21,352 bases of DNA from the IMG/VR virus record IMGVR_UViG_3300046010_002934, positions 1 through 21,352 of that record; one strand, 5' to 3'. The notes under the pieces are model-generated. The model was not told where the DNA came from. It saw only the letters and a list, made by a program, of their open reading frames with translations, and did not search any database. This document shows, piece by piece, positions 9,462 through 20,442 of the stretch. Made by a program: the position numbers and the translations under genes. Source of the DNA: a virus. How positions within the stretch are numbered: position 1 is the first letter of the stretch; each line of letters begins with the position of its first letter.

Positions 9462-11474
9462 CTATTGAGGCATTTTTAAAATTGTTGGAGCCGCTGAATG
9501 AGTAATGACAACAGATTGATTTGGTCCAAGATGAACAGTGCGATCTGTGCTTGAAAACACAGTTGCTCCACCAAGAGTAATACTCGAAACGGTTCCACCG
9601 TAAATGTAAACAGATTCAGGAGAGTGTCCTGCCGTGTATGTGTAAGGAGAACTGCCAGCTACAAAAGCTGACAAATTTCCAGTGTATCCGTTGTTTCCTA
9701 AAACAAATCCGTTTGTGGCAGTAGATCCATCTGCAATCCCAGAAGTTGCATTGTCTCTAACATCGTTGTTTGAAACAATAAAGTTTGTCGCGCCAGTATC
9801 AATTTGGATGCCATGACGTTGGAATGTGCTGGTTGCCGCATCTCCAGAACGGCATCCTGTGACAACTACTCCTGAAGATGTTCCTCCAATCAGGATTCCA
9901 GGGTATGTGTTTAGCGTTCCAGTAACTGGAGAAACGTTTGAGGAATTAAACGCAAGTTTTGCTCCTCTAATGATTGTGCCGGCATTTGAAACTGCAATGC
10001 CTGCTAAAGCACTTCCAGTAAACCTGCCACCATTGATTCTGGCGTCTATACAACCGTTGCCAATAAAAACGCCATGATCTGCTCTAGCTCCGTTGATAGT
10101 GCAGGCAACTAATTCAACAACCTGACATGTCTGAAGGTAAACTGCACTTTTGCAGTAATCAGTTTCCAGATCAAAAAATGTCAAAAACGAAGGTATATCA
10201 GTTGCTCCAACTGAATTTAGCGCATGAAGCGGTTTTCCGCCTACGTTGATAGCATAGACATGTGTTCCAGAAACAGTGTGAACAAACCCATCAATAACAA
10301 GACCGTCTTGTCCATCTACATAGTTTCCACCCATTACAAGCGAGTGAATTCTTAAAACATCCGAACGAGCCTGCCCTGATGCGCCACCTTGAACTCTAAC
10401 GTAATCACAAACTGTAGCAGTATAGTTTGTAAGTCTTGCAGTGAGGTCAACCGTGTTAAAGGTGTCAATCAAAACACCGTCATATCCATTTCCAGAATTT
10501 AATTCAAAATTACTTTCAGCAACATACCTTGCAACAAGTGTTCTGCCGCCAGTTTTTCCTGTTTCATCTAGTAGTCCATTTACGATTTTGTTTCCGTAAA
10601 TAAATGTTGCTGAAGTTTGGCTTTCAAAACGTATTGAATCAAAGTTGCCAACTGGAAGCAGTTTTGCACCATCTTGAAAAACAAGAGACGTTCTGTTCGA
10701 AGAAATACGTATTGTTCCAGTTGTTTTGTATGTGCCAAACGGAAACACTACATCTCCACCAGTAGATGCAAGTGAGTTAATCGCATCTTGAATCTTCAAC
10801 GTATCATCAGCTATCCCATTCCCAACAGCGCCAAAATCTTTCACAGACACGCTCTCACGAGCCTTGTCCTGCATGTTCCGTGTAACAGCACCAGCACCGG
10901 CTTGGATGAATGCAACAGAAGAGCCTGGAGTTTGATCGCCAGTAATGACTGCACCGCCTTGGAACAAGAACTGGTCACCAACAGCAGCAGGCGCAGTCAG
11001 CGTGATGGTCACGCTGTTCGTTTCCAAGTAGTCCAGACCAAGGTTTAGTCTCAGCCCGTTGCGGAAAACCTGCAACGTGTCAGTGCCCGGCAGGTAGCTA
11101 AACACGGTTAGCGTGAACGTAGTCTGTCCAGCAGTAGCAGTAATGAGCTGCGTGGAGATGTCGAACACCGATGTAGGCGCATCAGACTGGTCAAACGCAG
11201 AGAAGACCAAAACACGGTTCTTGTTCCTGACAGTGATCGAGTAAGTGTCAGTCGCAGAGTAGAACCTGCTAGGCGTTCCCTGTCTGCTAGGATACCCACC
11301 AACAGTCCTCACCGGGTTAGCCGCAGGAATGGTCAATGCTGCGTCCCAGAAGACGTTTACAGGGGCAGTCTCTGGATTCAGGTTACTTTGTCCAATGTAG
11401 ATGTAACCGCCCTCTAGCGGGGCTCCTGTCGTGTCAGTGAAAAATGGAAATGGAGATACGATGGAAGAGGACAT
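9462..11474 (-). CDS. Tailspike protein: P22-like head-binding domain plus pectate-lyase-like beta-helix
   Basis: A 670-aa trimeric tailspike expected to bind and possibly degrade host surface polysaccharide. Residues 1-95 match the P22 tailspike head-binding domain (FFTDTTGAPLEGGYIYIGQS, then NPETAPVNVFWD, then GGYPSRQGTPSRFYS). Residues 108-178 form a second beta module (TATAGQTTFTLTVFSYLPGT, then DQFLFQGG) seen in many phage tail proteins. Residues 208-235 (VSVKDFGAVGNGIADDTLKI) mark the start of a pectate-lyase-type right-handed beta-helix. It continues to about residue 610 with repeated short strands and Gly/Asn turns, followed by a C-terminal beta cap. Specific catalytic residues cannot be assigned. 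The length matches P22 tailspike (about 667). The start overlaps the upstream stop (TAATG). Base composition drops sharply near 10800, at the beta-helix boundary. Confidence 0.9.
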   Translation of the reverse strand: MSSSIVSPFPFFTDTTGAPLEGGYIYIGQSNLNPETAPVNVFWDAALTIPAANPVRTVGGYPSRQGTPSRFYSATDTYSITVRNKNRVLVFSAFDQSDAPTSVFDISTQLITATAGQTTFTLTVFSYLPGTDTLQVFRNGLRLNLGLDYLETNSVTITLTAPAAVGDQFLFQGGAVITGDQTPGSSVAFIQAGAGAVTRNMQDKARESVSVKDFGAVGNGIADDTLKIQDAINSLASTGGDVVFPFGTYKTTGTIRISSNRTSLVFQDGAKLLPVGNFDSIRFESQTSATFIYGNKIVNGLLDETGKTGGRTLVARYVAESNFELNSGNGYDGVLIDTFNTVDLTARLTNYTATVCDYVRVQGGASGQARSDVLRIHSLVMGGNYVDGQDGLVIDGFVHTVSGTHVYAINVGGKPLHALNSVGATDIPSFLTFFDLETDYCKSAVYLQTCQVVELVACTINGARADHGVFIGNGCIDARINGGRFTGSALAGIAVSNAGTIIRGAKLAFNSSNVSPVTGTLNTYPGILIGGTSSGVVVTGCRSGDAATSTFQRHGIQIDTGATNFIVSNNDVRDNATSGIADGSTATNGFVLGNNGYTGNLSAFVAGSSPYTYTAGHSPESVYIYGGTVSSITLGGATVFSSTDRTVHLGPNQSVVITHSAAPTILKMPQ

Positions 11475-14400
11475 TACTGGGACTCCTGTTGAGGTGTAAC
11501 AAATGGTTGAGGAGGCGCGACAAAGTACATGCGCACGAACTCGTTTACTTTTGGAAGGTTTTCTGGAGTGATCTTTTTAAGGGCCATCTTTGCCACCTCT
11601 GGGTCGAGCATGGCATCACTCAATAGCTGTATCACTCGATCCTTTGTGTCTCCAGTCCACTGCTTCCTTATAAAGGACAAGGTGCTAGTAAGCAACTTTC
11701 CCTTGCCGGGCTCGATGCCACTGACAACACGCTCAATAACTCCAAGCACATTGTCTTCAAGCTGCTTATCAACACGCTGCTCAAGAATATTCGCGAAGCT
11801 GGTTACTGATTCGCCAGGAGTTGCCTGAAGTCTTGCAGACATCAGTCCAACTTTCTTTTGAGCAGTCCGTAGCGCGTTTAGTTCTGGTGAGTTTTTGCCA
11901 AAAACAGCCTCAAGAGATTCAAGGTTCTTTTTGACTGTAATAAAATCAATTGTGTCTGCAAGCGACACAGCAAGATCAGCAGGAGTCAAATCGCCTTCCT
12001 TGTACCCAAGTTTTGTCTCCTTTGAGAGACGGCTATTTTGCTCAATGTATTCTTTGAATGCGTTTTGAATAGCCTGCTTTGTACGTCCAGACTTGTCCAT
12101 TGCAGCCAACTTCATCAACTCACGAAAGCGATTTGGGGCATCATCTTTGTCTGCAATGCTTTTAATTACTTCAGCCGGACTACCCTTGATGAATCTTGAC
12201 GCAACAAGGGCGTCTACTTTTTCTACGGCAGCTTTATTTTTAGCTTTTGCTTGCGCAGCAGCAGTGTCTCGAATCTCTTTTGCTTGTCGCTTTGCCTCTG
12301 CGATTGCTTCTTTGCCTTGTCCTTGAGCGTTGTCCAAAACCTGTTTTGCTGCTGCGTTAGCTTCTGCAACAATGTCTTTAGATGACATTTCGGCAGACTT
12401 CATTGCTGCCTGGGCCTGCTCTATATTCAGATCAGAAGCCTTTACCCTGCCTAGTCCTGTTTCAATTGGACCAGTAAGAGACATTGTAAGCGGAGTGAGT
12501 TCAGGAAAAGCAGTAGTCCAGTCTGCTCCAGTAGCCTTGCCAGGCATACTTTTGGACATCCATTCCACCACAGCCTCTTCAGTTGGAGTGAGCCCAAGTT
12601 CAGATGACATGCGCTCCACCATTGCATCTACCGTTGCCTTGATGCCAGTAGGGCTACCTTCAAGCCCGGCTCTTAGTTGCAATAAGTCTTCCTTGCTTCC
12701 AAAATACTTATCAAGTGTTTGGCTTGCAGGCACTGGATTATCTGCACGAAGAACAGCCGCAGTAGGCCCATCAAGAAAAATGTCTCCAAATACATTGTAT
12801 TCAGCATTGAGAGCCTTGAGAGCATTGTTTGCCTCTCCAGCCTTCTCCATGTCACGCATGATTGCATCTTTTACCTTGCCCAAAGCAGCCGCCCTAGCTC
12901 GGTTTCCAGACTCAATCGCCTCCCCTATCTCTCCTGCAAGCTCTGTTCTTCTTTCTTTTAAGATATTAAGAGTGTCAGATTTGTTCTTTTTGTAAGAACT
13001 TATAATTGCATTTACAACGCGAGACTCCTGTTTTCCAATTTGTTTTGCCTTCGCCTTGAACTCACTTGCAGCAGAAAGCGTATTGTCTACAGTTACTATT
13101 ATCTTTCCAAAACGCTCATCTGAATAGCCTTCATCAAAGTATTTTTTACGTTGCTGAAAGTTTTCTGAAAGAACCTCTTTTGCCAGCTCGTTTCTTGCAG
13201 CACGTTTTGACTCTCGGCCAAGACGATCTCTGTATGACGACAGTGCCTCGTATGCTTGCTGAAGCTCTATCTGAACAGCATTTGCAGCCTGTTCCATGCT
13301 TAGAAGCCCGTTTCTGGCTCCTTGCATGATGGCATCTGCCCTCGTCATGCCTTCAGTAAGAATCTGAGAAGCCTGCTGTTCTCCGTTTGCCAGCAAATCT
13401 TGAGAAGCCTCATTTGCTGCGTTCATCAGAGCACTAGCTTCTGCCGCCGCAGCCTCGGTCGTCTGTCGTGTTGAAGCTCGCTTCCCTGCCAGATAATCGC
13501 GCCTAGCAGCTTGAACTTGTCTTGAAATCTCTTCTGGAGGTGCGCCTACTTGTGCAAGTCTTGCGCTCAGTTCCGTAGAAATCGCCTGAATGTTCTGCTG
13601 GTCCCGTGTTTGCAGTGCCTCGTTCCTTGCAGTTAGAATGCGCTGTAGGTTGATGAGCCCTTTTTGCCCAGTCACCTCCCCGGTCATTGGCTCGAAGCCT
13701 GCCGTCCTGATTTCAGCCGCCCTTTCAATAGCATCAATGGCTGCCGTCGGGTCTGCTGTAAATGTTCCAAGAGCCTCGTTGCGCTGCTTGATTGCTGCTG
13801 CCTCGGTTCTGAGGGCCTTAGATCTAAGCACACCCGGCAGATCCCTTGCCTGTGCAGCAAATGCTCCTTGAACTGCTCGTTCTGCCAATGCTGATAAATT
13901 CAGTTTGCCTTCTTGAGCCTGCCTTACGGCCTCCATACCGGCACTAACCACAGCGCCTCCAACTGCCTTGGCAGCTCCAAGTTTTCCTCCTGTTACAAAG
14001 CCTGGAAGCGTTTCGCCAAACAACTTTGCATACCTACTTGCACGATCTTGTTCCGCGAAAGAAGCCCTTGCACGCTCCTCCGTTGTCATAGGAGAAACTA
14101 TCTCTTGAGCTTTGCCGCCCAAGTAGCCACCAATCAGGCTAGTTTGAACGGTTCCCAAGCCCGGAGTAAAGCCAGTAACTCCTAGCGCAGCAGCTCCACC
14201 AATCATGCCGGGAATGCCGGCTTGTTCGTAGCCAATTTTGGCTCCAGTAGCAGCGCCAATAAGTCCTCCAAGAGGAGGTATAGTTCCAGCAACCTCACCA
14301 ATTAAACCTCCAACAGTGGGTCCAATAGCCTCTACAAAGCCCTGCTGGAACGCGCCTGCCGGACTCTGCATCTCTGACTTGTACTGCTCCCACAAACCAG

Positions 14401-14821
14401 CAAGAACAGGAGTGCGTTCAGCGTCAAACTGTGTACTTGGATTGATGTTGCCGGCAGCGACCTGTTGGTTGAAATAGTCCCTGATCGAGGGATTGCGAGA
14501 CATCGTGCCGTAGATCGCATCGACCTCAGACTGAGTGATGCTTTCAGCTTGAGGCGAGACAGCCTTTAGGATGTCAGCAGCCAGTTCCTTTGGAGGAGGA
14601 GTGTTGTCGAGAGTTGCGCTTACCTCTTCAGGTGGACGACCAGCAAACTCCCTAGGAGTCTCAAGTATCCCAACACGCTCGATTGGCATCTGTGCGCCGG
14701 CAGTCGGAGGCTCTCCAAAAGTTGCCTTGTAATCACCCAAGGCAGCATCGACAGCAGACTTCTCGTCTGGGGCCTCAATGACGTACTCCTTGCCGTAAAC
14801 ATCGAGCGTAAATTCAGGCAT
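11474..14821 (-). CDS. Very large putative internal virion/ejection protein, 1115 aa
   Basis: Probably packaged in the capsid and ejected with the DNA, corresponding in position to P22 gp16 though nearly twice as long. The N-terminus (MPEFTLDVYGKEYVIEAPDE, KSAVDAALGDY) is a small beta/alpha module common at the start of phage internal proteins. Residues 161-238 are Gly/Ala-rich and hydrophobic (IGPTVGGLIGEVAGTIPPLG, IGAATGAKIGYEQAGIPGMI, IGGYLGGKAQE), consistent with glycine-zipper membrane insertion. Beyond about 340 the protein is mostly helical. Long Ala/Glu/Lys/Gln coiled-coil stretches occur at roughly 390-650 and 790-850. No lytic transglycosylase or protease motif is recognised. The start is one base after the previous stop (TAATATG). 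Ejection function is inferred from context and architecture. Confidence 0.78.
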   Translation of the reverse strand: MPEFTLDVYGKEYVIEAPDEKSAVDAALGDYKATFGEPPTAGAQMPIERVGILETPREFAGRPPEEVSATLDNTPPPKELAADILKAVSPQAESITQSEVDAIYGTMSRNPSIRDYFNQQVAAGNINPSTQFDAERTPVLAGLWEQYKSEMQSPAGAFQQGFVEAIGPTVGGLIGEVAGTIPPLGGLIGAATGAKIGYEQAGIPGMIGGAAALGVTGFTPGLGTVQTSLIGGYLGGKAQEIVSPMTTEERARASFAEQDRASRYAKLFGETLPGFVTGGKLGAAKAVGGAVVSAGMEAVRQAQEGKLNLSALAERAVQGAFAAQARDLPGVLRSKALRTEAAAIKQRNEALGTFTADPTAAIDAIERAAEIRTAGFEPMTGEVTGQKGLINLQRILTARNEALQTRDQQNIQAISTELSARLAQVGAPPEEISRQVQAARRDYLAGKRASTRQTTEAAAAEASALMNAANEASQDLLANGEQQASQILTEGMTRADAIMQGARNGLLSMEQAANAVQIELQQAYEALSSYRDRLGRESKRAARNELAKEVLSENFQQRKKYFDEGYSDERFGKIIVTVDNTLSAASEFKAKAKQIGKQESRVVNAIISSYKKNKSDTLNILKERRTELAGEIGEAIESGNRARAAALGKVKDAIMRDMEKAGEANNALKALNAEYNVFGDIFLDGPTAAVLRADNPVPASQTLDKYFGSKEDLLQLRAGLEGSPTGIKATVDAMVERMSSELGLTPTEEAVVEWMSKSMPGKATGADWTTAFPELTPLTMSLTGPIETGLGRVKASDLNIEQAQAAMKSAEMSSKDIVAEANAAAKQVLDNAQGQGKEAIAEAKRQAKEIRDTAAAQAKAKNKAAVEKVDALVASRFIKGSPAEVIKSIADKDDAPNRFRELMKLAAMDKSGRTKQAIQNAFKEYIEQNSRLSKETKLGYKEGDLTPADLAVSLADTIDFITVKKNLESLEAVFGKNSPELNALRTAQKKVGLMSARLQATPGESVTSFANILEQRVDKQLEDNVLGVIERVVSGIEPGKGKLLTSTLSFIRKQWTGDTKDRVIQLLSDAMLDPEVAKMALKKITPENLPKVNEFVRMYFVAPPQPFVTPQQESQ

Positions 14822-14822
14822 A

Positions 14823-16343
14823 TTATTTTCTGCTCTTAATTACCACGCCAGAAGGAGGAACGTAAGCAGGCTGTTGCTGTTGTGGAGCGCCGCCCAGATT
14901 GTACATGTTTGGAACAGGAGTTCTGCCTGTCTGTTCAGCCTCTTTGATGCGCTTCAGCCTGATGGCGTCATCCAGCACATCCTGCTCACTCTTCTTCTTG
15001 TAACCAGCTTGGAGCTTTGTAAGAACCTGTTGATAGGATTCTCCTGGCTTCACTGTTATGCCGGCCACTTCAAACCCAACAGGAGCCTTGGATTGCAATG
15101 AGCGAGCATTTTGCTGCCATGCTGCATTCAGTTCCTTCCTGTCAGCGTCTGCGAGTTCAACCTTTTGAACCAACCTAGCCCAACTAAGAAGTTCCTGTGG
15201 GCCGGCCTTCATTACATCAGGAGCGCCTTTATCCAGACGAGCACCCTCTTTTTCAGATAGCGATCCCTTCAATCCAGCGGCCTTTGCAATCCACTCTTTG
15301 GTTGCGTATGGCTGAATGCTTGCCCGCAAGTTTTGTGCCCTTGTAGTGTCTCCAGAAATTGAAGAAAAAAAGTTTTGAAAAGAGGCTTCGACTCCAGACT
15401 TAAACTCCTTTGGATTCTGTTCAGCAAATTTTAGCAATTCATTAACAGAGTCAGTAACACCAGCAACATTCATCCTTGCTGTTGCTGCTTCATCTGTAAG
15501 CGCATTGATGTCTGACTGTTGCTTGTCAGAAATTTTTTCTCCACCGAGGACCAGTTTTGCAAGTTCTGTTTTCGTTTCAGCTTGAGACTTTTCCACTCCA
15601 ACAATTGATGTTAGTGCCTGTGGATTAAAAATCCCAAGAAGTTCAAGAGCAGAAGCCTTTGCAATGTTAATGCCTGCTTGACCTGTTGCAGGATCAAGAA
15701 GTTTTGCTTGAACATTTGCGGCATCAGCGATTGCTTTAACCTCTGGATTTTTGCCCATGCTATTTTGAATAGCGGTAGCAAATGTTGAGTATGTAGATCT
15801 TGCTCCTTCAATGTCGCCAGCTTTAAGCTGGTTTGCAGCACTAACTAAAGTTGTTTCTGTTGCTTTTTGAATTTGCTTTGGAGCCATTTCAAAGCCCTGT
15901 AATATCTGCTTTGCTGATTCTGGCTTAAACAATGCAAGCTCATTCACAACAGGAAGAATATCAGACATTGGAGCGTCAGCAGGAAACGATGTTAGTCGTC
16001 CAAACAATTCGCTCTGCTTTGCCTGCGCTACAGCCTGCTGTTCCATCTGACGCACACGATCCTGCTGCGCCTGCTCAAATGTGATTTTGCCCTGACGCAA
16101 GGCTTCTGCGGAGGTCGCCATTGACTGACCAATCTGACCAATCCTTGCACGTTCAGCCTGAAGCTGAAGTGGCTGCATCTGCTGTTGAAAAGCCGCATTC
16201 TGCTGCGCAATGGCAGCCTGCTGTTCAGCAAGCTGACTCTGCTGCTGGAGCCCTTTGAGCTGCTGGATGCCAAGCAGGCTCTGAAGGAAGTTCTGAGCCG
16301 GAGGCTGCGGGATATTAACGGTGTAGTCGTAAGGTCCGGCCAT
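14823..16343 (-). CDS. Putative DNA ejection protein (P22 gp20-like position), 506 aa
   Basis: The second of three putative ejection proteins. The best start is the ATG at 16343 (MAGPYDYTVNIPQPPAQNFL), one base after the upstream stop; a TTG at 16352 would overlap that stop and is rejected. Residues 20-110 are Gln/Ala-rich and strongly helical (QLAEQQAAIAQQNAAFQQQM). The middle is helical and polar, and the end is flexible, with Gln and Pro (GGAPQQQQPAYVPPSG) and a basic tip (KSRK). This low-complexity, Gln-rich helical make-up and the position after a gp7-like gene match P22-type ejection proteins. P22 gp20 is 471 aa. No enzyme motif is present. The AT content rises in the middle (15361-15420 and 15841-15900 about 37% GC by eye) compared with 16141-16200 (about 52%). 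Confidence 0.75.
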   Translation of the reverse strand: MAGPYDYTVNIPQPPAQNFLQSLLGIQQLKGLQQQSQLAEQQAAIAQQNAAFQQQMQPLQLQAERARIGQIGQSMATSAEALRQGKITFEQAQQDRVRQMEQQAVAQAKQSELFGRLTSFPADAPMSDILPVVNELALFKPESAKQILQGFEMAPKQIQKATETTLVSAANQLKAGDIEGARSTYSTFATAIQNSMGKNPEVKAIADAANVQAKLLDPATGQAGINIAKASALELLGIFNPQALTSIVGVEKSQAETKTELAKLVLGGEKISDKQQSDINALTDEAATARMNVAGVTDSVNELLKFAEQNPKEFKSGVEASFQNFFSSISGDTTRAQNLRASIQPYATKEWIAKAAGLKGSLSEKEGARLDKGAPDVMKAGPQELLSWARLVQKVELADADRKELNAAWQQNARSLQSKAPVGFEVAGITVKPGESYQQVLTKLQAGYKKKSEQDVLDDAIRLKRIKEAEQTGRTPVPNMYNLGGAPQQQQPAYVPPSGVVIKSRK

Positions 16344-16344
16344 A

Positions 16345-17475
16345 TTAAGCAAGGTCTAGTCCTGAGGTTATCATTCCTACTTGTCCTGCTCCAGGATTGT
16401 AGCCACCACCAAATCCCCCTCCACCTTGGAGCGCCTGCATCAGCATGTAGTTCTGCACGCCTCCACCAATAGCACTGCTAACTCCACCGAGTCCTTGAGC
16501 AAACGCATTTGCGGCACCAATCTGACCAGCGGCTTGTGCCTGTCCTTGACCAACCATCAAGTTGCCAATGTTTTGAGCAGCGTTCTGCTGTGCTGCTGCT
16601 GTGCCGGCAGCAGAAGCCTGACCAACGCCGAGTAGGTTCTGAGCAGAACCAGATCCAAGGCTTGTAAGTCCAGCCAGTTTGCCGTACTGCGCTTCGATGA
16701 GCTGGTTTAACAGGTTTGGCCTAAACTGAGCCAAGGCGCCCTGTACGTTGCCACCTCGAAGTCCACCAGTGGCAGAGGCATTTTGCAAGATGCCCTGCTC
16801 GCCCTGTTTGGCAAGCTCCTGAAACAATGGTCCCTGCTCGATGCCTTGGATCGCTTGACGCTGCCGTTCTGCGCCAAGTTGAGCATAGCTCTGATCCTGA
16901 AGGATCGGCTGCATCAACGCTTCACGTTCCGCGTAAGCCTTAGACTCAATGTCTCGAATGCCAGCTTGAGTCTGATTTTGAAACTGAGCCAACAGACCAG
17001 CTTGAATGTCTTTTCTCGATACTCCTTTTGGCGTGGGAGCCTTTTTGTAATCTGCTGACTTTTGGAACGCCTTTAGCTCTACATCTCTCTGACGTTGGTA
17101 ATTTGCAATGTTGGCCTTTGTAACATCAGCAATATTAGTAAACTGAGGAGACTGTTGAAGCTGATAGAGAGCACGTTGACGATCTGCTTCACCACCAAGA
17201 CCAACCAAAGCCTGCATTCCTTGCAGTGCCCCAGGACCAGCCTGAATATACGGTTGCGTGAGTCCCGGTTGACCAGCTTGAATGTAAGGAGAAAGAAGCT
17301 CGCGAATAGCATCAAACTGCCTGCGCTGCTCATCAATAGCCTTCCCTTGCGACTTGGCCTGTGTGTCTGCGGCAGACTTTGCAGCTTTAGATGCCTTGTT
17401 TGACCCATAAATTGAAGATCCAGCACCTAAAAGTGCAGCTCCACCAAGTAAGAATCCACCAGTTGGATCAGCCAT
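16345..17475 (-). CDS. DNA transfer protein, P22 gp7-like, 376 aa
   Basis: The first of the ejection proteins. The N-terminus MADPTGGFLLGGAALLGAGS followed by SIYGSNKASKAAKSA is typical of gp7-like DNA-transfer proteins, where a short hydrophobic Gly/Ala helix precedes a coiled region. The rest is Gln/Ala-rich and helical (residues 30-260). The C-terminal 120 residues are Gly/Ala/Gln-rich (GQASAAGTAAAQQNAAQNIG, LQGGGGFGGGYNPGAGQVG). At 376 aa it is longer than P22 gp7 (229 aa). The gene overlaps the end of the 149-aa gene by eight bases and its stop is one base before the next ATG, giving tight coupling. The role is to help DNA cross the cell envelope after ejection. The assignment rests on pattern recognition and gene order. 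Confidence 0.78.
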   Translation of the reverse strand: MADPTGGFLLGGAALLGAGSSIYGSNKASKAAKSAADTQAKSQGKAIDEQRRQFDAIRELLSPYIQAGQPGLTQPYIQAGPGALQGMQALVGLGGEADRQRALYQLQQSPQFTNIADVTKANIANYQRQRDVELKAFQKSADYKKAPTPKGVSRKDIQAGLLAQFQNQTQAGIRDIESKAYAEREALMQPILQDQSYAQLGAERQRQAIQGIEQGPLFQELAKQGEQGILQNASATGGLRGGNVQGALAQFRPNLLNQLIEAQYGKLAGLTSLGSGSAQNLLGVGQASAAGTAAAQQNAAQNIGNLMVGQGQAQAAGQIGAANAFAQGLGGVSSAIGGGVQNYMLMQALQGGGGFGGGYNPGAGQVGMITSGLDLA

Positions 17476-17917
17476 AAAATTCGGTTTTGTAATCGTTAAA
17501 GGTTTCTCCGTATAGCCTTAACACATCGCCAGAAAGTTCAGTTGCCCTTTTGACTCCATGACATGCCTGAACTGCGATCATGCAAAGATCATAGAAAGCC
17601 GCTCTCCAAGCAAATGACATTTCGTTAGCCTGCCCTGCACGCTCAACAGCATCACTTCCCTGCCACTTAAGGATACTCAGAGCCACTACTGGAAGCAGTG
17701 TTGTAGAGTTTGCAACAAAAAAGGGATTCAGCGGCATCGCAACAAGTGTGTTCCAGATGCACTTGTTTAACTCCTCCCGAGAGACTTCGTCACCATCTGC
17801 GACATCGTCAAATACCTGTGTCACCTGAAACATCATTAGTAGCCACTCAATGGCAGAAGCAGGCAACTGGAAGTATTCTTCCAGATTCTGCCTCAGTAAT
17901 GTCAGGCGCTCATCCAC
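17468..17917 (-). CDS. Unknown helical protein with DDVADGD motif, 149 aa
   Basis: No function is recognised. The start is GTG at 17917, whose G overlaps the upstream TAG stop. A strong GGAG lies eight bases upstream, the clearest Shine-Dalgarno sequence in the window. The protein is predicted to be all-helical. Its conspicuous element is QVFDDVADGDEVSREELN at about residues 34-51. WNTLVAMPLNPFFVANSTTL, a PVVALSILKWQGSD stretch, and WRAAFYDLCMIAVQACHG follow. From memory, phage proteins with a Q-V-x-DD-x-x-DGD motif and LPxNPF are widespread and uncharacterised. The DDxxD spacing resembles the metal site of isoprenoid synthases. At 149 aa, and without a clear second metal motif (only FNDYKTE near the end), such activity is doubtful. 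It lies next to the ejection genes, so a virion or assembly role is likely. Confidence 0.8.
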   Translation of the reverse strand: MDERLTLLRQNLEEYFQLPASAIEWLLMMFQVTQVFDDVADGDEVSREELNKCIWNTLVAMPLNPFFVANSTTLLPVVALSILKWQGSDAVERAGQANEMSFAWRAAFYDLCMIAVQACHGVKRATELSGDVLRLYGETFNDYKTEFYG

Positions 17918-18252
17918 TAGGTGATCTCCCTCCCAGAAGCAGTAAACGTCAATGCAGAAGCAGTCCCTGCGAGCGTCGAAATGAATCCACCAGCCTCAAG
18001 CACCTGACCAACAAGCTCAGGACACAGGTAAGTCTCGCCGGGCACAATCGAGCGAGTCTTCACTACCAAGTTCGAGTTGCCGGCAGAACCACCAGACACA
18101 ATCAGATTCACGCTCAAGGTCACGTTAGCTGTGTTCGTATTAGTCACAGTCGCCTTGTCAATGATGGTCTTGCAGTTGACAGCGGTGTACTGGGCAGTCT
18201 GAGAGTTCTCAAGCTGCTTGGGAGGAATGATGTTTTTGACGGTGACTGCCAT
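17917..18252 (-). CDS. Small beta-rich structural protein, 111 aa
   Basis: The sequence (MAVTVKNIIPPKQLENSQTA, then AVNCKTIIDKATVTNTNTAN, VTLSVNLIVSGGSAGNSNLV) has alternating beta strands with Ser/Thr/Asn turns, like an Ig-like or jelly-roll sandwich. RSIVPGETYLCPELVGQVLE and the Ser/Thr-rich end support an all-beta fold. In phages with P22-like tails, short proteins of this kind near the neck genes are usually virion components (neck, decoration or tail accessory). No specific family is recognised. The start ATG lies one base after the previous stop (TGATATG), without a ribosome site. The next gene starts on its stop codon. Confidence 0.75.
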   Translation of the reverse strand: MAVTVKNIIPPKQLENSQTAQYTAVNCKTIIDKATVTNTNTANVTLSVNLIVSGGSAGNSNLVVKTRSIVPGETYLCPELVGQVLEAGGFISTLAGTASALTFTASGREIT

Positions 18253-18253
18253 A

Positions 18254-19042
18254 TCAAGAAATGTTGTCTGTGACCGTGAGAATTAACGAAGGGAGAGCAG
18301 GATGTGGCGCACTTGCTGGCAGAGCTAATATCTCACAACTGGTATCATCTGTGCTCCAAACCAACTCGAAGTAATCTCCTGCGTTAATTGGAAGAACGAA
18401 ATTCCAAGCACCAACTGTTTCTGCGTTGTTGCCTTGAATCCGTATCTTAGTTGCGCTGTCTGGAATGTCAACGCCGTTGACCCTGGCCCAAATATAAATA
18501 GCACCAACTCCACCAGCAGTTTTGTGAAGCTGTGCAGAGAACTGAAAGTTGTAAAAGCCCTCGGTGTCAACGTAAACGCGACTGTTTGGAGTGCCGGTGT
18601 ACACGCCAAACGAAATGTCAGTCGTATTCAGCGTCATCGGATACGCCGTGTTTATGACAGCAGCATTCTGAGTGACTGTGCTATGAAACGCTCCGTACCG
18701 CTTCCTGCGCACCTCGTTGATGACTGGCGGTAAAATATCAGTTTGCGCAACAATTTGTGTAGTTGGCGGGGCAATATCCGAAACAGTGCTGACTTCGACG
18801 CTTCGAGGAGCCAGCGCAAGCAGTTCGACTGCGTCAGCCAATCTGGTGATAGCGGACAGTGCCTGAACGGCCTTAGAATCGGCGTTCTGTGCGTTTACAG
18901 AGACTTCCTCAACTATAGCTGCGCTGTCGTTGAGGCTGGACGGGATGAGAGCGAAAAGCTGCTCAAAAGCCCGGATTGCCCGTTGAGAGGGCAGGAACTC
19001 AGCCAGCTCATTACGAGTAATTTTGTATGGCCCCTCGATCAT
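18254..19042 (-). CDS. Virion-associated coiled-coil protein with C1q/TNF-like C-terminal domain, 262 aa
   Basis: Residues 1-80 form a helical N-terminal part with heptad-like spacing (FEQLFALIPSSLNDSAAIVE, VQALSAITRLADAVELLAL). A Pro/Thr-rich linker covers 82-110. Residues 115-260 form a beta domain. It includes YGAFHSTVTQNAAVINTAYP, SRVYVDTEGFYNFQFSAQLH, GAIYIWARVNGVDIPDSATK, and GDYFELVWSTDD. The V-x-x-x-G-x-Y-x-F-x-F and N-G-x-x-I-x-x-S patterns are those of C1q/TNF-like jelly rolls, which trimerise. A trimeric stalk and knob is therefore likely, suiting a fibre or neck appendage. The start ATG overlaps the gp10-like stop (ATGA). The fold call is moderate and the biological role is inferred. 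Confidence 0.78.
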   Translation of the reverse strand: MIEGPYKITRNELAEFLPSQRAIRAFEQLFALIPSSLNDSAAIVEEVSVNAQNADSKAVQALSAITRLADAVELLALAPRSVEVSTVSDIAPPTTQIVAQTDILPPVINEVRRKRYGAFHSTVTQNAAVINTAYPMTLNTTDISFGVYTGTPNSRVYVDTEGFYNFQFSAQLHKTAGGVGAIYIWARVNGVDIPDSATKIRIQGNNAETVGAWNFVLPINAGDYFELVWSTDDTSCEILALPASAPHPALPSLILTVTDNIS

Positions 19043-20442
19043 ACCACAAGTGGTTCGACTCTGGCCTCCAGTCGGGCCACAGAAAGCTGTGCATCACTGG
19101 TGCCCCGGAACTTCTGCGCCCTCCACTGCCTCATGCGCCCCTGCTGAAGCCACGATAGTCGCTTGCCGCGCACGCCGGTCATGCCAGCCTTGCAGACTCG
19201 TTCCTGACTCCAGGTCACACCATCCTCTGTGTACGAAGTCCAGATACTTGGGTCAGTGCCAAAGATCGAGTTGCCGGTTAAGGAAATTAGCTCCAGCTCA
19301 TGGAAGACCAAGCCCCGGCTTTCATTGTACAGGATGATCGTCGCAAACTCCCAGCCATTCAGGACACCCCAGTGAGAGGACAGCGAGTCAGACAAGTAGC
19401 CGAACGCAGTGCTTGCCGGGTCACCCACATTCCAGCGGTTATACACCCAAACGAGGTTCTTCGCACGATACTGGCTGTTCCCAACAAGGCTGGTCGCCAA
19501 TGTGAACCAGACTGGAGCGCCGGCGCCAGTAGTGGCTGCCGCGTCAAACACGAGCGTCTGATTGGGTAGATGGATATACAAGTGCCTGTAGCCCTTATCT
19601 ACACGGGCCTCGACAAGCACATTGGACAACTCTTCCTCTGTAAATTCGGTAAGCAGTTGGTCAATCTCTCTAGTTGCAATCCTTTCTGCATTACTGCCAG
19701 AGATGAGCCAAACAGAAGGAGCCTCGTTCCTGCCACCACCGATAAACGCGATGGATTCCATGAAGTTGCAACAGGCATGAGTGCCAACTGTGCCACGCTG
19801 GACCTGCGCTCCTTCTACACGCTGGAACGGGAAAAACTGGCCCCCTACGTTATCAAAAACTTCGATGGTGTGCCGGTTGAGCGCGTAAACCTCGTTACGA
19901 ACCTTTAGGAGGGCCACTACGGGGTCAGGATCAGCTTCAGCAGAACCGTACTTGAGCGGATTGACCGAAAATGGATCGTTGAGTTCCGTCACAATCAGGA
20001 ACTCTCCGTCGGTTGTCATGAAGTAGCCATCCACCCAGACGACATCGACGACTGTGCCAAGGTCAGGATCGGTGACCTGTTGGAGCCCGGTGCTGGGCCG
20101 ATACAGGAACAGATTGCCACCTGAGGCGACAGCCAAGTAGTCGAAGGAATAGTCAAAGGTAACCTGACCAGTGCCTCCTACATTGCCTATGACAGTGACG
20201 ACGTTCGTACTAGAGATCGACACTAGATTAGTGCCCATCACGCGGTAAAGCAGCCCCTGCCACTCGATGGCGCCACGGTCAATGCCGGGACCAGTGCCAA
20301 GGCTGACAATCCCGTCTGCAGGACGAAAGTAACCATCAGAGATCCCTGACTTCAAGATGACAGGAATCATGTTGCGCGGATACTCCACGCGGAAGTCCCC
20401 AGCGGTATCTGTGTAAATTCCGTTGAGGATGGGGACTTGCAT
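19039..20442 (-). CDS. P22 gp10-like packaged DNA stabilisation / tail hub protein
   Basis: The tail accessory factor that closes the portal after packaging and carries the tail spikes and needle. Length is 467 aa versus 472 in P22. The sequence is beta-propeller-like, with repeated strands separated by Gly/Asp turns. Notable stretches are MQVPILNGIYTDTAGDFRVE at the start, IDRGAIEWQGLLYRVMG near 54-70, VVDVVWVDGYFMTTDGEFLI near 131-150, and VRNEVYALNRHTIEVFDNVG near 181-200. APSVWLISGSNAERIATREI (about 240-260) and GYRHLYIHLPNQTLVFD follow, and the C-terminal part has KRLSWLQQGRMRQWRAQKFR. These match gp10-family proteins as I know them. The start overlaps the stop of the 48-aa gene (TAATG). 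Confidence 0.88.
   Translation of the reverse strand: MQVPILNGIYTDTAGDFRVEYPRNMIPVILKSGISDGYFRPADGIVSLGTGPGIDRGAIEWQGLLYRVMGTNLVSISSTNVVTVIGNVGGTGQVTFDYSFDYLAVASGGNLFLYRPSTGLQQVTDPDLGTVVDVVWVDGYFMTTDGEFLIVTELNDPFSVNPLKYGSAEADPDPVVALLKVRNEVYALNRHTIEVFDNVGGQFFPFQRVEGAQVQRGTVGTHACCNFMESIAFIGGGRNEAPSVWLISGSNAERIATREIDQLLTEFTEEELSNVLVEARVDKGYRHLYIHLPNQTLVFDAAATTGAGAPVWFTLATSLVGNSQYRAKNLVWVYNRWNVGDPASTAFGYLSDSLSSHWGVLNGWEFATIILYNESRGLVFHELELISLTGNSIFGTDPSIWTSYTEDGVTWSQERVCKAGMTGVRGKRLSWLQQGRMRQWRAQKFRGTSDAQLSVARLEARVEPLVV

Follow-up and report, generated by a model that had tools for sequence, protein, structure and literature searches.

What does a small protein with a strictly conserved aspartate motif do at the junction of the tail and DNA-ejection genes of a podovirus, and does its motif reflect a relation to class I isoprenoid synthases? 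In the window, by which we mean the whole stretch of 21,352 nucleotides analyzed here (positions 1 to 21,352 of IMG/VR record IMGVR_UViG_3300046010_002934), the gene in question lies on the minus strand at 17468..17917, with a GTG start codon at 17917-17915, a stop that ends at 17468 and a product of 149 aa, an assignment that draws on the ORF list, a PHROGs match, an alignment of relatives and an AlphaFold2 model. A sequence-only reading, in which the strand was not mentioned, had described an all-helical protein carrying QVFDDVADGD, had compared the spacing of the aspartates with the magnesium site of class I isoprenoid synthases, and had suggested a virion or assembly function from the position of the gene beside virion genes. 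The open reading frame is as described, and the motif occupies residues 34-43.

The same reading had singled out the ribosome-binding site, with GGAG eight bases before the GTG, as the clearest in the window, and had taken it as a sign of high or tuned expression. The site itself was confirmed. The putative Shine-Dalgarno sequence, GGGAGGGAG (17926..17934, read 17934-17926 on the minus strand), was called from the sequence, its duplex energy and its relatives, and lies within the 3' end of the upstream gene; its GGAG ends exactly 8 bases from the GTG, which itself overlaps by one base the TAG of that gene. With a duplex energy of -10.7 against the anti-Shine-Dalgarno sequence, it was the strongest site among 30 ORFs of the window (runner-up -7.7), a set that we selected from the ORF list and that may include spurious genes. 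When 1500 random minus-strand positions were scored over 6-9 bases, compared with 4-9 bases for the genes, 0.6% equaled -10.7 or better, so that finding a site this strong in a set of 30 genes is not improbable by itself. The codon pattern of the upstream gene appears to be a better sign of a real Shine-Dalgarno sequence than duplex energy alone. A conserved Gly-Arg-Glu close to the C-terminus of the upstream protein is encoded by GGG-AGG-GAR, which creates the Shine-Dalgarno sequence, in 8/8 relatives with the family gene starting within -1/+2 bases of the upstream stop, compared with an AGG arginine codon in 1/8 other loci, where the family gene lies further off or a different gene comes next; this count omits five further copies without Gly-Arg-Glu, and its rows are related and carry no p-value. 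The AGG pattern thus lends indirect backing to the suggestion of high or tuned expression.

The protein matched phrog_21390 in PHROGs v4 (E 7.5e-24, residues 2-146 on positions 3-149 of the 153-position profile), while a scan against Pfam and NCBIfam placed it above the cut-off of no family, and none of its four structural relatives in BFVD (E up to 0.001) carries a function name. Protein WNO49113.1 of Achromobacter phage CF418P1 is also a member. With four different members as queries, CF418P1 was the sole carrier among 50,697 phage records at E <=0.001, and one of these queries also gave a 52-residue match at E 0.3; because this phage is the only annotated relative in those records, the search led to no model phage characterized by proteomics. 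In IMG/VR the family is common, with overlapping scans that confirmed 21, 46, 12, at least 555 and 91 places, from which 80 of the at least 555 and 80 of the 91 were retained for analysis. A pattern scan of GTDB species genomes found it in at least nine contigs, a lower bound, and none of 14 control genomes contained it. A family member was recovered by profile from 231 of 237 loci, the window locus included, the remaining six being five reference-phage stretches and L154; the 231 loci gave 149 distinct sequences of at least 115 aa, reduced to 89 when those more than 90% identical were dropped. Among 35 carrier contigs, 34 had one family match each, and the 35th had a second, cut match at its opposite end.

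In an alignment of 88 members, with the window protein as the reference for identity, the median identity was 25% and 60 of the 87 other rows fell below 30%. Five positions were invariant in all 88 sequences (A22, D37, D38, D41 and R105), and several more were nearly so: G121 in 86, D43 and E92 in 85 each, W85 and F66 in 84 each, and E138 in 81. Three of the five invariant columns are D37, D38 and D41, indicating that conservation of the aspartates is far above chance, and the three residues on which the earlier comparison with isoprenoid synthases depended are retained in every aligned homolog. The codons of this DDxxDxD motif (D37 D38 V A D41 G D43) lie at 17789..17809; a second conserved polar motif, [NDT]xxE, present in 85/88 members and represented by D89 and E92 in the window protein, is encoded at 17642..17653, and the codon of R105 is at 17603..17605, all on the minus strand. 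Two other explanations of these residues were tried and rejected. An EF-hand or dockerin-like calcium loop differs by one residue in spacing from DDVADGDEVSREEL when judged by eye. A metal-dependent all-alpha NTP pyrophosphatase, a group characterized by the motif EExxE...ExxD, was suggested by [NDT]xxE, and no such family appeared in the Pfam scan; it was also missing from the lists of structural neighbors, which by itself proves nothing.

Pfam and PHROGs scans of the window confirmed that the gene adjoins virion genes, all on the minus strand, in what we read from these matches and from gene order as a P22-like tail and ejection block. In the direction of transcription, this block comprises a P22 gp10-like head closure protein Hc3 (19039..20442; phrog_578 E 3.2e-99, PF11134 E 1.6e-42), a needle-like protein assigned to the place of P22 gp26 by position and by a weakly C1q/BclA-like C-terminal end (18254..19042; BclA_C E 0.027, below cut-off), a 111-aa protein with weak matches to phrog_1276 and phrog_20100 (17917..18252), the phrog_21390 gene, and a gp7-like DNA ejection protein 1 whose first 8 bases overlap the end of the family gene (16345..17475; phrog_598 E 2.5e-36, and E 7.2e-55 with a profile of the cluster of next genes). 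Two large proteins follow, both assigned by position: a 509-aa protein at the ejection protein 2 position (P22 gp20 / T7 gp15; 14823..16352), with no PHROG match and no Pfam match above cut-off, and a 1115-aa protein at the ejection protein 3 position (P22 gp16 / T7 gp16; 11474..14821), with no PHROG match. Beyond these, a 670-aa protein (9462-11474, minus strand) contains in its first third 'DFGAVGNGIADDT', which we take to resemble a beta-helical tailspike motif. The counterpart of the needle-like protein (18254-19042, minus strand) in phage MW202867 is annotated as 'cerebellin-1 domain'. The 111-aa protein is found as two adjacent copies in loci L087 and L141, and also in MW202867 (L024), where no family gene follows it.

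Examination of the neighborhoods of the 89 non-redundant loci revealed an ejection-type protein of the phrog_598/phrog_8003 cluster as the next gene (+1) in 56 loci and at +2 in three, as judged by a profile that was built from the +1 cluster itself and that therefore finds its own members by construction. The representatives of this cluster matched phrog_598, 'DNA ejection' (L204), and phrog_8003, 'virion structural protein' (L190). In 29 of the 89 loci there was no match to the ejection profile at +1 to +3, and many of their next genes, in the same place, were glycine-rich; one of the 89 loci ends at the next-gene position, and one ejection-profile match was found upstream instead. Of 88 next genes, 83 share the strand of the family gene, and 79 of these 83 start no more than 13 bases past the stop or overlap it, with overlaps exaggerated by the use of the longest ORF as gene start; the five antisense calls are probably gene-caller artefacts. 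Several of these next genes have unusual features. The phrog_8003 genes of L190 (6380-7336) and CF418P1 (L023:5844-7031) match Peptidase_S74, an intramolecular-chaperone domain that seems odd for an ejection-type protein. Those of L170, L166, L165 and L189 (cluster C9) start approximately with MLIxxKFNGYxxDGxRxYxC followed by a glycine- or serine-rich run, and the one gene of this cluster that was scanned, from L189, matched no PHROG family. Those of L151, L191, L174 and L194 have a cysteine within the first four residues and then a Gly- or Ser-rich stretch.

On the upstream side, the tail-protein place (P22 gp10 / T7 gp12) is occupied by three sequence clusters, whose representatives matched phrog_578 'head closure Hc3' (L204), phrog_511 'internal virion protein' (L190 and L162) and phrog_3287 'virion structural protein' (L189), and which, from their position, we interpret as nozzle proteins. 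The best tree of 70 members, each associated with one of the three clusters, had 8 changes of kind, compared with a mean of 30 when the kinds were shuffled, and although many forks of this tree are weak and some branches are long, its well-supported branches alone force 2, 4 and 3 changes for the three kinds. Because the tree requires such changes, the family appears to have stayed in its slot through several replacements of the upstream protein.

This slot has counterparts in classical podoviruses, a point that was absent from the sequence-only reading. In P22, where the order is 10-26-14-7-20-16, gene 14 fills the slot ahead of ejection gene 7, and in T7, where the order is 12-13-14-15-16, gene 13 fills the slot ahead of ejection gene 14. 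Neither PF11039 nor PF11090 was among the Pfam matches of the window protein. In the 35 carrier contigs, which are 35-65 kb long and mostly not known to be complete, we found neither DUF2824 (PF11039), with E. coli as a positive control, nor the T7 gp13 family (PF11090), with T7 as a positive control. Conversely, the phrog_21390 family was found in none of six other phages, five of which hold another small gene in the slot. The slot gene of MW202867 has a Cupin_2 match below the Pfam cut-off and the PHROG name 'short tail fiber protein', that of PfAn1 corresponds to a PHROG 'acetyltransferase', and that of VSN-002 had no family match. In MW202475 the slot lacks a small gene, and the function is thus not required in every such phage. 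Occupation of one slot by different families is the pattern to be expected of an accessory function in the ejection module.

We propose, with moderate confidence, that the phrog_21390 protein serves the podovirus DNA-ejection module as an accessory (assembly) factor, a functional counterpart of P22 gp14 and T7 gp13 that belongs to another family. The observations that favor this proposal are that the gene adjoins an ejection-type gene, that P22 and T7 have gene 14 and gene 13, respectively, in the equivalent slot, and that no member of the gp14 or gp13 family was found alongside the phrog_21390 gene. Of the two functions suggested earlier, virion or assembly, the assembly role appears to be the best fit to the genome context. 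The protein would be translated from the ejection operon in coupling with its neighbors, would bind the ejection protein made next, whether gp7-like or a replacement, and could act as its chaperone, maintaining the solubility of that ejection protein and delivering it to the portal or procapsid while the head is assembled. DDxxDxD, [NDT]xxE and Arg105 may form one acidic site, probably Mg-binding, located at an end of a helical bundle that resembles isoprenoid synthases, and serving in binding or stability rather than in prenyl transfer. Four considerations weigh against the accessory role: invariance of acidic residues is a mark of active sites more often than of chaperone surfaces, 29/89 loci had no ejection-profile match at +1 to +3, MW202475 manages without a small gene in the slot, and P22 gp14 and T7 gp13 have poorly defined roles themselves.

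The same context could be produced by a minor structural virion protein or an ejected protein, packed with or beside the ejection proteins and acting in DNA delivery, in which the acidic cluster would bind Mg or a basic partner. The location of the gene among virion genes, the single match in 34/35 contigs and the annotation of the T7 gene 13 product as 'internal virion protein' are all consistent with this explanation, but the compact, globular AlphaFold2 model is less so, and we consider it possible but rather unlikely.

The claim that the protein is all-helical was borne out by prediction. The AlphaFold2 model of the window protein (model 1) is compact and helical (pLDDT 95.6, pTM 0.89), and that of a 22% identical relative from L155 (model 2) is also helical (pLDDT 96.7, pTM 0.88), the two models sharing most of their alignment input and hence being not fully independent. 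Re-alignment with VIA of the Foldseek candidates for model 1 (236 chains) gave 5h9d_C as the best match (Z 10.7, rmsd 3.5, 142 aligned), and the 50 listed entries consisted entirely of isoprenoid synthases or prenyltransferase domains of such enzymes. With model 2 (359 chains), the best match was again 5h9d_C (Z 8.8, rmsd 3.6, 129 aligned), the 188-residue chain C of a Staphylococcus aureus heptaprenyl diphosphate synthase, and the top seven of 50 listed entries were synthases, five with Z 8.8-7.1, the sixth with 6.4 and the seventh with 6.0; relative to the unrelated rows, which begin at Z 5.3, the top five are clear, the sixth narrowly so, and the seventh tied. Residues 1-149 of model 1 align along residues 21-219 of human GGPP synthase 2q80, in which the first aspartate motif lies near residue 64. 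The order of the predicted helices favors placement of D37, D38 and D41 on the first synthase aspartate motif, though a gap of several residues is needed.

These similarities may simply reflect a common way of packing helices, with DDxxD as a turn motif or simple structural metal site of unrelated origin, an explanation at the level of the fold that is compatible with the accessory role and to which we assign a substantial probability, a little short of even. According to the caveat that accompanies the aligner, helical models with Z below about 13 may reflect common arrangement alone, and 0/359 chains reached Z 8 in the first pass for model 2. Foldseek against the PDB gave nothing significant for model 1, with a best E of 0.69 (LIP5) and the first synthase at E 1.3 (probability 0.85), or for model 2, with a best E of 1.6 (a flagellar chaperone) and a lone synthase in the best 50 rows at E 6.0. 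The uniform list of synthases and prenyltransferase domains obtained with model 1, and the seven synthases that head the list for model 2, five of them clear of the first unrelated row, weigh against common packing alone.

Profile comparisons gave nothing significant. With hmmsearch, the family profile matched the PDB sequence of octaprenyl diphosphate synthase 3tc1 at E 1.1, aligned on the first DDxxD and ranked below two designed scaffolds (E 0.51 and 0.81). With hhalign against 20 synthases, the match was to the second aspartate motif, with a probability of 1.3% and a score of 19.9, within the range of 20 column-shuffled controls (10.4-25.0); one of these 20 scored higher, and the reversed alignment and ten neighbor clusters scored lower. 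Global hhalign of the family against the 20 synthases gave no match. Because neither hmmsearch nor hhalign gave anything significant, sequence homology to isoprenoid synthases was rejected, and the placement of the motif once on the first and once on the second aspartate motif, neither significantly, is consistent with common helix packing.

The remaining explanation is that the family consists of small, Mg-dependent enzymes of the class I isoprenoid-synthase type that bind a diphosphate, either prenyl (host FPP or undecaprenyl-PP) or of another kind, and modify a virion protein or host lipid. The invariant DDxxD and Arg, together with [NDT]xxE, would suit such an enzyme; synthases are the best structural neighbors of both models, the top match is of similar length, and the slot holds the PHROG 'acetyltransferase' in PfAn1 and the weak Cupin_2 protein in MW202867. 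Members are, however, 139-197 aa long, compared with open frames of 296-642 aa in 20/20 cellular synthases, and RRG (or RRN, RKG) follows the first aspartate motif in 0/88. In class I isoprenoid synthases the second metal motif is either NSE/DTE or a DDxxD on helix H; 10/88 members had a later D[DE]xx[DE] and 2/88 an NSE-like motif. PF00348 was not listed for the family members scanned with Pfam and occurred in 0/35 carrier contigs, and the hhalign score lay among those of shuffled controls. We therefore regard this explanation as improbable, and the sequence features make enzyme activity of the family protein unlikely. The likeness to isoprenoid synthases suggested earlier is thus upheld in its DDxxD and in the best structural neighbors of two models, but not in RRG, the second metal motif, size or profiles; judging from the models, the family may share the isoprenoid-synthase fold, and we do not class it as an isoprenoid synthase. 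It is also conceivable, although we regard it as a long shot, that podoviruses took the class I isoprenoid-synthase fold and cut it to about 150 residues, and that the first metal site (DDxxD and the invariant Arg) binds Mg-diphosphate or prenyl-diphosphate, which would make the ejection proteins dependent on a lipid carrier or on Mg for their assembly or delivery.

Published work provides a setting for the accessory role. Entry of the ejection proteins into the P22 procapsid is reported to require the scaffolding protein, and deletion of gene 7 to lead to less gp16 and gp20 in P22 virions (PMC4992974), and a three-gene ejection operon and its divergence are described (PMC8954989). The function of P22 gp14 or T7 gp13 is not stated in the available portions of PMC8954989, PMC10883804, PMC5384007, PMC4755594 and PMC4992974. 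Among the literature matches listed, no title or opening of an abstract links isoprenoid synthases to phage ejection or gives a role for P22 gp14 or T7 gp13; PMC9409350 contains the words isoprenoid synthase, bacteriophage and DDxxD. We make no claim that the family or its fold relation is new to the literature.

The slot has been kept beside several kinds of tail protein, yet it is filled by different protein families. The phrog_21390 family is widespread and uncharacterized, has a strict acidic motif and sits in a classical gene slot, making it a good experimental target, and since it brings to the slot a site that is strictly conserved and can be mutated, the role of the slot gene becomes testable. 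If the fold relation is true, an enzyme fold has been reused, or is still used, within a phage DNA-delivery module. The interest of this family is moderate at present, and would be high were binding of prenyl or pyrophosphate groups by the fold and site to be established.

Comparison with known systems places the window protein in phrog_21390, to which PHROGs v4 gives neither name nor function. With class I isoprenoid synthases, and especially the trans-prenyl diphosphate synthases such as 5h9d_C, the family has in common DDxxD (88/88 members), and they are the best structural neighbors of its two helical models, although at Z-values below those considered safe for helical matches; it differs from them in being about half the size, in lacking RRG, in having a second Asp-rich or NSE motif in few members, in showing no significant sequence relation, and in its phage operon context. 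T7 gp13 (PF11090, 'probable scaffold protein Gp13'; 138 aa) shares with the window protein the slot between genes 12 and 14, but has no convincing similarity to it (best BLASTP E 0.066 in a single comparison, over 29 residues, with DDxxD not in common). P22 gp14 (DUF2824, phrog_651 'head morphogenesis'), although it belongs to a different family without sequence similarity (BLASTP E 6.8), shares with the window protein both the slot, between genes 26 and 7, and a similar length of 151 aa.
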